Origin: Arthrobacter wenxiniae
GTDB lineage: Bacteria; Actinomycetota; Actinomycetes; Actinomycetales; Micrococcaceae
Assembly (NCBI RefSeq): GCF_013376105.1
Contig: NZ_JAAMFM010000003.1
Coordinates: 62,001-126,000, forward strand
Reading direction: 5' to 3'
DNA: 64,000 nucleotides
This document shows, piece after piece, positions 6,302-57,158 of the stretch. A model generated the notes under the pieces. That model was not told the DNA's origin, made no database searches, and saw only the letters and a list, made by a program, of their open reading frames with translations. Each line of letters begins with the position of its first letter. The stretch's first letter is position 1. Position numbers and translations under genes: made by a program.

Positions 6302-6414
6302 GTCCGGCCCGCGCGGCGCCAACCGGGCACCGTCCGGGCGCGTCCGGCCCGCGCGGCGCCAACCGGGCACCGTCCGGGCGCATCCGGCCCGCGGCGCCAA
6401 CCGGGCGCCGCGCG
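6302..6414 (+). repeat. 40-bp tandem repeat upstream of bcp
   Basis: Units starting GTCCGGCCCGCGCGGCGCC begin at 6302 and 6342 (identical), and a third, partial and diverged unit begins at 6382. It ends about 28 bases before the peroxiredoxin ATG, so it would lie in the 5' untranslated region. Units are contiguous with no spacers, so this is not a CRISPR. Confidence 0.85.
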
Positions 6415-18794: not shown

Positions 18795-18800
18795 AGTCTA
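18795..18800 (-). promoter_or_regulatory. -10 element TAGACT, leaderless M20 gene promoter
   Basis: TAGACT then exactly 6 bases (GCTGGC) then the ATG at 18788; no Shine-Dalgarno. Its -35 region (about 18818-18823) lies just outside the 35-bp tandem repeat. Confidence 0.6.
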
Positions 18801-18831
18801 GGCCACCGGGGCCGCGGACCACAGGGTCACC

Positions 18832-18997
18832 ACCGCCCGCCCCTGCCGCCTCGCTCGGCCCCGATCCCCGCCCGCCCCTGCCGCCTCGCTCGGCCCCGAT
18901 CCCCGCCCGCCCCTGCCGCCTCGCTCGGCCCCGACCACCGCCCGCCCCTGCCGCCTCGCTCGGCCCCGACCACCGCCCGCCCCTGCCGCCTCGCTCC
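18832..18997. repeat. 35-bp tandem repeat between divergent genes
   Basis: About 4.8 units. The core CCCTGCCGCCTCGCTC begins at 18841, 18876, 18911, 18946 and 18981, exactly 35 bases apart. Two unit variants differ in GATCC versus GACCA. It fills the space between two divergent promoters (M20 gene leftward, FAH gene rightward). Contiguous and GC-rich; a VNTR by appearance. Confidence 0.9.
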
Positions 18998-19015
18998 GGC
19001 ACGCCGCCGAGGAGG

Positions 19016-19021
19016 TAGGAT
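19016..19021 (+). promoter_or_regulatory. -10 element TAGGAT, leaderless FAH gene promoter
   Basis: TAGGAT then 6 bases then ATG 19028. GAGGAG (19009-19014) is complementary to CTCCTC (19022-19027), so a hairpin across the -10 is possible in DNA. The -35 would lie in the last unit of the 35-bp repeat. Confidence 0.55.
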
Positions 19022-19027
19022 CTCCTC

Positions 19028-19861
19028 ATGACAGCTGCCCCGTACCGCCTTGCCCGTGTCCACCCACTCGATGCGGCGGACGGCCCCCTGCCGGAGCAGT
19101 TCTTTGTCCGCAATGACGCGTCCGGCTTCGCCGGACCCGACGGCACTGTGTGGACGGTGGTCGCCACGCCGTTCCCCGCCTCGGCCGGAAACCAGAACAG
19201 CCCCGCCCGGGCCGGCTGGACCACCGGCGCCAGGGTCAGCGAGGACCAGTTCAGCTTCCTTGCGCCGTGCGCCCCGGCCAATGTCTTCGGGATGGCGCAC
19301 AACACCGGCGCGCCGGGCCGGGCGCTGCCGCCGCAGGCGTTCCACAAGGCCGCCAGCTCGGTCATCGGCCCAGGCGAGGCCATCAGGCTCGGCCCGGAAG
19401 CGGGCCGCGTGGAGCCGGAAGCCGAGCTGACCGTCGTCGTCGGCCAGGCCGCACGGCACCTGACCCTGGAAAACGCGCGCGCAGCGATCCTGGGCTTCAC
19501 CATCGGCAACGACGTCTCCGACCGCGACGCCCAAAAAAGCGACGAACTGTGGATCAGCGCCAAGAGTCCCGACACGTTCACCCCGCTGGGGCCCTGGATC
19601 GTGGTGGGCCTGGAAGATCGCGGCCGGCCCATCGGCATTGTGCACAACGGCACCGAGCTGTCCGCCGCCTCGAGTGACGACCTCGGCTGGGGCGTGGGGG
19701 AGATCCTGGTGTACCTCAGCAGTTTCATGACGCTGCAGCCCGGGGACGTCATCCTCACCGGATTCCCGGCCGAGTGCCGCCCGCTGGCCCCCGGGGACGA
19801 CGTGGTGTGCCGCGTGGGCGGGATCGGCGAGCTGCGGAATCCTGTGGTGGCCGGCGAATAG
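19028..19861 (+). CDS. Fumarylacetoacetate hydrolase family protein
   Basis: 277 residues with the C-terminal FAH fold. KAASSVIGPGEAIRL, then EPEAELTVVVGQAA (metal ligand Glu pair), AILGFTIGNDVSDRD (third acidic ligand) and GDVILTGFPAE are the family metal and substrate loops. Members hydrolyse or decarboxylate acylpyruvates and related catechol-pathway products; no catabolic partners are adjacent, so the substrate is open. The residues after GNDVSDRDAQKSDELW replace the common DWQ... segment. Confidence 0.85.
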   Translation: MTAAPYRLARVHPLDAADGPLPEQFFVRNDASGFAGPDGTVWTVVATPFPASAGNQNSPARAGWTTGARVSEDQFSFLAPCAPANVFGMAHNTGAPGRALPPQAFHKAASSVIGPGEAIRLGPEAGRVEPEAELTVVVGQAARHLTLENARAAILGFTIGNDVSDRDAQKSDELWISAKSPDTFTPLGPWIVVGLEDRGRPIGIVHNGTELSAASSDDLGWGVGEILVYLSSFMTLQPGDVILTGFPAECRPLAPGDDVVCRVGGIGELRNPVVAGE

Positions 19862-56415: not shown

Positions 56416-56419
56416 CAGC

Positions 56420-56614
56420 CGGCGGTCGAGCAGCGAGCCCCACGAGCGCGTCGAGACCCGGCGGTCGAGCAGCGAGCCCCGCGAGCGCGTCGAGACCCGG
56501 CGGTCGAGCAGCGAGCCCTGCGAGCGCGTCGAGACCCGGCGGTCGAGCAGCGAGCCCCGCGAGCGCGTCGAGACCCGGCGGTCGAGCAGCGAGCCCCGCG
56601 AGCGCGTCGAGACC
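56420..56614 (-). repeat. Five-copy 39-bp repeat array behind pncA
   Basis: Exact period 39, units beginning at 56420, 56459, 56498, 56537 and 56576. In the leftward reading each starts GGTCTCGACGCGCTCGC. Units differ at one or two bases. Same family as 6921-6960 and 57048-57132. No unique spacers, so not a CRISPR. Confidence 0.92.
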
Positions 56615-56732
56615 CGTATTGCGTCGCATCCCACGGCTCCCCTGCCCTTCGGCAGCATGGCAATTGGGGACCGTTATCCACAATTCCGATATTGGCCCCG
56701 AAGATGCGCCGTCCGGCCACGACAATGTGAAC

Positions 56733-57047: not shown

Positions 57048-57132
57048 GGTCTCGACGCGCTCGCAGAGCCCGCTGCTCGACCACCGGACCCAGGTCTCGA
57101 CGCGCTCGCAGAGCCCGCTGCTCGACCACCGG
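57048..57132 (+). repeat. Two-copy 40-bp repeat behind the GIY-YIG gene
   Basis: Units 57048-57087 and 57093-57132, each starting GGTCTCGACGCGCTCGCAG and ending GCTGCTCGACCACCGG, with a 5-base link. Opposite orientation to the 56420 array. Between the GIY-YIG stop and the convergent helicase stop. Confidence 0.92.
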
Positions 57133-57158
57133 AGCCAGGCCCGACCAGCGGGGCCGGG

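Follow-up and report, generated by a model that had tools for sequence, protein, structure and literature searches.

A 35-bp tandem array between two putative leaderless promoters of Arthrobacter wenxiniae, most likely a lineage-specific minisatellite

Introduction

Promoter tandem repeats (PTRs) have been described in Mycobacterium tuberculosis at lpdA (58-bp unit), dop (57-bp unit) and cysG-efpA, and those at lpdA and cysG sit at leaderless promoters. At dop and lpdA, copy number changes within isogenic populations at 10^-2 to 10^-3 per chromosome, and a 12.5-fold gain in lpdA expression from one to four copies is cited in the same work (all according to the available part of PMC12817950). 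In leaderless genes, a TANNNT signal precedes the start by about 12 bp, as stated in the accessible portion of PMC3160421.

The locus considered here lies in a 64,000-nucleotide stretch of the Arthrobacter wenxiniae genome (the window), where a 35-bp array separates a gene for an M20 family peptidase (M20) from a divergent gene for a fumarylacetoacetate hydrolase family protein (FAH). The array was seen in none of the 22 genus-mates searched; judged from sequence, it is a lineage-specific minisatellite and most likely filler. This article examines the two promoters, the structure of the array and the corresponding spacer in related genomes, and weighs the roles that the repeat might play.

Flanking genes and their promoters

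In both genes, the first T of a TAnnnT box is located 12 bp before the ATG (Table 1), and both boxes are conserved at this place. These are the hexamers named in the initial annotation, TAGACT for M20 and TAGGAT for FAH. All 11 relatives with a directly divergent gene pair keep the two −10 boxes; TAGAAT or TAGACT stands 6–7 nt before the M20 ATG in each of these and in one further relative, G012, which makes 12. On the other side, 19 of the 20 genus loci, the present one counted, carry the block GGAGGTAGGATGTCCTCATGAC or a close variant of it ahead of FAH; the exception is G011. Among 31 further Micrococcaceae loci inspected, from a set of 57 outside the genus (L038–L094), most show a similar block in the same position, with TAGGAT or TACGAT. 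Because the boxes and their distance from the ATG are conserved among relatives, the two divergent leaderless promoters proposed in the initial annotation are well supported at the level of sequence. A search for −35/−10 pairs resembling the sigma-70 consensus found none, which is uninformative at this GC content.

The conserved block at the FAH start (19009–19032) is strong across Micrococcaceae and occurs once in this genome when up to three mismatches are allowed. In the window, GAGGAG and CTCCTC form the arms of an inverted repeat flanking the FAH −10 box, perhaps a candidate operator.

Table 1. Features of the M20–FAH region, in window coordinates
Feature	Position	Strand	Basis
M20/M25/M40 family peptidase, 527 aa	17205..18788	-	Pfam PF01546 E 1.1e-25, PF07687 E 3.8e-11
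TAGACT, putative −10 of leaderless M20 gene	18795..18800	-	sequence and conservation in 12 relatives
35-bp tandem array, 4.8 units, A-T-T-A-A	18829..18996	.	TRF, unit listing, core unique in genome
canonical G-quadruplex motif, loops 1,1,3	18859..18878	-	T-type unit and junction with neighbour
canonical G-quadruplex motif, second identical copy	18894..18913	-	same motif as 18859..18878
TAGGAT, putative −10 of leaderless FAH gene, inside conserved block GGAGGTAGGATNTCCTCATGAC	19016..19021	+	conservation
fumarylacetoacetate (FAA) hydrolase family protein (FAH gene), 277 aa	19028..19861	+	Pfam PF01557 E 3.9e-46

Structure and composition of the array

TRF assigns the array a period of 35 bp with 96% matches and a score of 308; its copy number of 4.8 comes from a draft assembly of 88 contigs and may deviate from the real unit number if the reads were short. 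Period and copy number thus agree with the initial annotation, but the units are not all exact copies, as had been claimed. A unit-by-unit listing resolves two types that differ at two positions and follow each other in the order A-T-T-A-A: units 1, 4 and 5 start with ACCACC (A-type), and units 2 and 3 with ATCCCC (T-type). This order suggests an array old enough to have gained substitutions and to have copied them. Nor does the repeat quite fill the space between the promoters; it lies between them, but unique sequence is left at either end, 28 bp towards M20 and 19 bp towards FAH. The initial annotation had placed the FAH −35 zone in the last unit; this zone (about 18991–18999) reaches the final bases of the array but only straddles its edge, and the M20 −35 zone (about 18817–18825) falls outside.

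The periodicity is well beyond chance. A 23-bp core occurs exactly five times in the array, a number that none of 100 shuffles of the window reaches, and when the 215-bp spacer is compared with itself at a lag of 35, identity reaches 0.79, whereas none of 5000 shuffles exceeds 0.51. With a unit between 10 and 100 bp repeated head to tail, the array classifies as a minisatellite. Outside the array, neither the rest of the window nor the 4.33-Mb genome yielded a match to the core with up to three mismatches allowed (control 0). Since the units directly adjoin one another, a CRISPR-like or interspersed repeat is ruled out. Folding of the unit gave z-scores against shuffles of 0.29 on the plus strand and of 1.59 and 1.40 on the minus strand, with 0.01 for 137 nt, and the unit does not qualify as a REP element; a search of the array against Rfam matched no family. 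These folding scores and the absence of an Rfam match rule out a hairpin, REP or structured RNA. In composition, the array has a GC content of 0.85 and a GC skew of −0.48, the most extreme skew of any 168-bp stretch of the window; its G4Hunter magnitude is the highest among the 168-bp stretches sampled there.

Tandem arrays as such are not rare in this genome, because others occur: at the chosen threshold, three were found in the window and six in 277,646 bases surveyed beyond it (14 stretches on contigs C23 and C4). Two arrays in the window, at 56419–56616 (39 bp × 5.1) and 57048–57139 (45 bp × 2), belong to a dispersed family with the core GGTCTCGACGCGCTCG. Across the genome, this core has 49 exact matches, of which many form small clusters, and 91 matches when up to two mismatches are allowed, compared with 13 for a reversed control. 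Membership of the 35-bp array in this family was rejected; the core is absent from its units, and its longest BLAST match to the other arrays of the window is at most 9 bp. A further 40-bp array (2.8 copies) at 6302–6410 overlaps open reading frames on both strands.

The M20–FAH spacer in related genomes

An FAH ortholog with 76–83% identity is present in 19 of the 22 genus-mates (missing in G001, G016 and G022), and in 11 of these 19 it is directly divergent from M20. The distances between the two −10 boxes in the 11 relatives are 27, 36, 37, 37, 57, 57, 57, 61, 69, 89 and 105 bp. The corresponding distance in the window is 215 bp; without the 168-bp array it would be 47 bp, within the range of the relatives. 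TRF found no array in any of the 11 spacers, and across the 22 genus-mates the 35-bp array gave weak matches of at most 42.8 bits. The best of these, in G010, was discarded as a related array, being low-complexity DNA without tandem repeats. Since the relatives keep both promoters and do so without the repeat, the array reads as a recent insertion. The closest genome on the tree, G021, is likewise without it; a 24-bp array (2.7 copies) is found there in the N-terminal part of M20 (L138:5697–5761).

The remaining relatives carry other sequence between the two genes. About 1.1 kb separates M20 and FAH in G012, where the 3′ end of a regulator gene precedes FAH, and about 6 kb separates them in G003, G006, G013, G014 and G015. 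The gene content of this longer interval was read in G003 alone (L132:482–5973), where it comprises a phosphonate-type ABC transporter, a metallophosphatase and an RpiR-type regulator; in the others, a similar regulator's 3′ end is visible upstream of FAH. A close M20 ortholog is absent from both G018, in which the regulator end is present, and G011, in which a different sequence lies upstream of FAH. On a tree of M20 and FAH (18 genomes), the intervening cassette is distributed patchily. In addition, a 43-bp piece of the G004 spacer matches the 3′ end of the G006 regulator (77%, E 3e-4), which points to loss of the cassette in G004. The interval would thus be a weakly constrained spacer, in which sequence appears to be gained and lost while the promoters persist.

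Possible roles of the array

The initial annotation had observed that 35 bp is close to three and a third helical turns and that each unit gained or lost changes both distance and phasing, and the arithmetic bears this out: 35/10.5 equals 3.33, and the phase of the window modulo 10.5 bp moves from 5.0 to 1.5 when one unit is removed, to 8.5 with two, and back to 5.0 with three. If the two promoters interacted, by a shared regulator, supercoiling or looping, they might prefer a set phase, and the array would tolerate steps of three units only (105 bp, ten turns). Nine of the 11 relatives do fall between 4.5 and 6.0 modulo 10.5, the class of the window, and since each unit turns the promoters by 120 degrees, three units restore the phase common to most relatives. 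Treating all 11 as independent, this clustering is significant (R = 0.64, p = 0.009), but it gives p = 0.16 with seven lineage groups, which were drawn up after the spacers had been seen, and p = 0.07 once the window is included; for lineage groups plus window, periods near 16 bp do equally well, and within the window's own clade the spacers are scattered (27, 61, 105 and 215 bp). The signal is better regarded as a lead than as a result, given that it is non-significant once relatedness is collapsed, and helical phasing appears highly improbable. Co-regulation dependent on spacing or phase, as the initial annotation envisaged it, is not supported: relatives hold their promoters 27–105 bp apart free of repeats, so the pair requires neither the repeat nor a constant spacing. 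Scarcely any credence can be given to the full form of the idea, in which the array would be a ruler of length and phase, turning by 120 degrees per unit as a three-state switch for phase-variable co-regulation.

A phase-variable promoter repeat could also work without phasing, if frequent copy changes tuned one or both genes through sites for RNA polymerase or for a regulator. The location would suit such a role, with units 19 bp from the putative FAH −10 box and 28 bp from the putative M20 −10 box, and the FAH −35 zone overlaps the edge of the last unit. The anatomy, with repeat units placed immediately ahead of a leaderless promoter in an actinobacterium, matches that described for lpdA, dop and cysG-efpA in M. 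tuberculosis, a member of the same phylum (PMC12817950, available part). Because these repeats are reported there to be phase-variable, phase variation of the present array is conceivable; but the unit is not conserved in the 22 genus-mates, no regulator site was identified in it and no Rfam family matches it, and both genes look metabolic, all of which makes this role unlikely in our analysis. It is improbable that G-quadruplexes on the minus strand affect transcription or drive expansion of the array, even though two of the window's 19 canonical motifs, identical to each other, fall at the T-type units, the spacers of the 11 relatives have none, and the G4Hunter value is as high as noted above. 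The window holds no surplus of such motifs, with 19 found against a mean of 30.6 in block shuffles, and those in the array lie upstream of both start sites and are therefore not transcribed from them. That the array is coding sequence, either a gene extended in the upstream direction or a small repeat protein, might be suggested by a unit free of stops in all six frames and by long open reading frames that cross the array. Open frames are to be expected at 85% GC, though, and the starts of both genes are conserved among relatives; a unit length that is not a multiple of three, together with the absence of the array from every relative, leads us to reject a coding role as extremely unlikely.

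A probable origin as a young minisatellite

We consider it likely that the array is a young, lineage-specific, non-coding minisatellite, mainly neutral filler in a spacer that is not conserved and is bounded by two leaderless promoters that are. Replication slippage or unequal recombination would have multiplied a GC-rich 35-bp segment of the M20–FAH spacer to about five units, and the resulting array is probably unstable. The array is periodic and is located upstream of each −10 box, so whole units could come and go without touching the promoter-proximal sequence: the 28 bp beside the M20 −10 box and the 19 bp beside that of FAH would stay unaltered, as would the unit adjoining each promoter while a unit or two remain. 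Only promoter separation, phase and unit number would shift. With the promoter-proximal sequence constant, little effect on expression would be expected, and the role of the array would be mainly that of neutral filler.

Three points speak against neutrality. No 168-bp stretch of the window is more C/G-skewed than the array, and none of those sampled is more G4-prone; the spacing in the window falls in the phase class of nine of the 11 relatives; and repeats at leaderless promoters change expression in another actinobacterium, M. tuberculosis (PMC12817950, available part). If copy number varies and matters, promoter-repeat phase variation would extend from M. tuberculosis to an environmental bacterium of the Micrococcaceae, and also to leaderless promoters arranged as a divergent pair. 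Otherwise, the locus would be a clear-cut instance of a young minisatellite within a spacer where the flanking promoters are conserved and everything between them is replaceable.

Comparison with known systems

No bacterial case of a long-unit array between divergent promoters came up in the one open-access library searched, whether under such repeats or under helical phase. Like the PTRs of M. tuberculosis, the present array consists of head-to-tail units of tens of base pairs upstream of leaderless promoters, and short reads size both poorly. In M. tuberculosis, copy number varies in cultures and between strains and lpdA expression is affected, whereas the present array is likened to these repeats by anatomy alone. 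It also separates two divergent promoters; the words 'divergent' and 'bidirectional' do not occur in the available text of PMC12817950. The minisatellites used for MLVA in Renibacterium salmoninarum are likewise tandem arrays, which serve there as strain markers; that typing rests on copy-number polymorphism (PMC4029610, available part), whereas the array described here is known from one genome, the sample being one genome per species and thus a single copy-number value.

A tandem repeat in a region common to two divergent promoters is found in Haemophilus influenzae, where the (TA)n tract between hifA and hifB has a 2-bp unit that alters the −10/−35 spacing inside the promoters (PMC2651432 and PMC3899988, each in its accessible part). 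No part of the present array lies between a −35 and a −10 element, the array only edging the FAH −35 zone. Unlike the hifA/hifB tract, the 35-bp unit is located upstream of both −10 boxes, and changes by whole units leave the core promoters unaltered.
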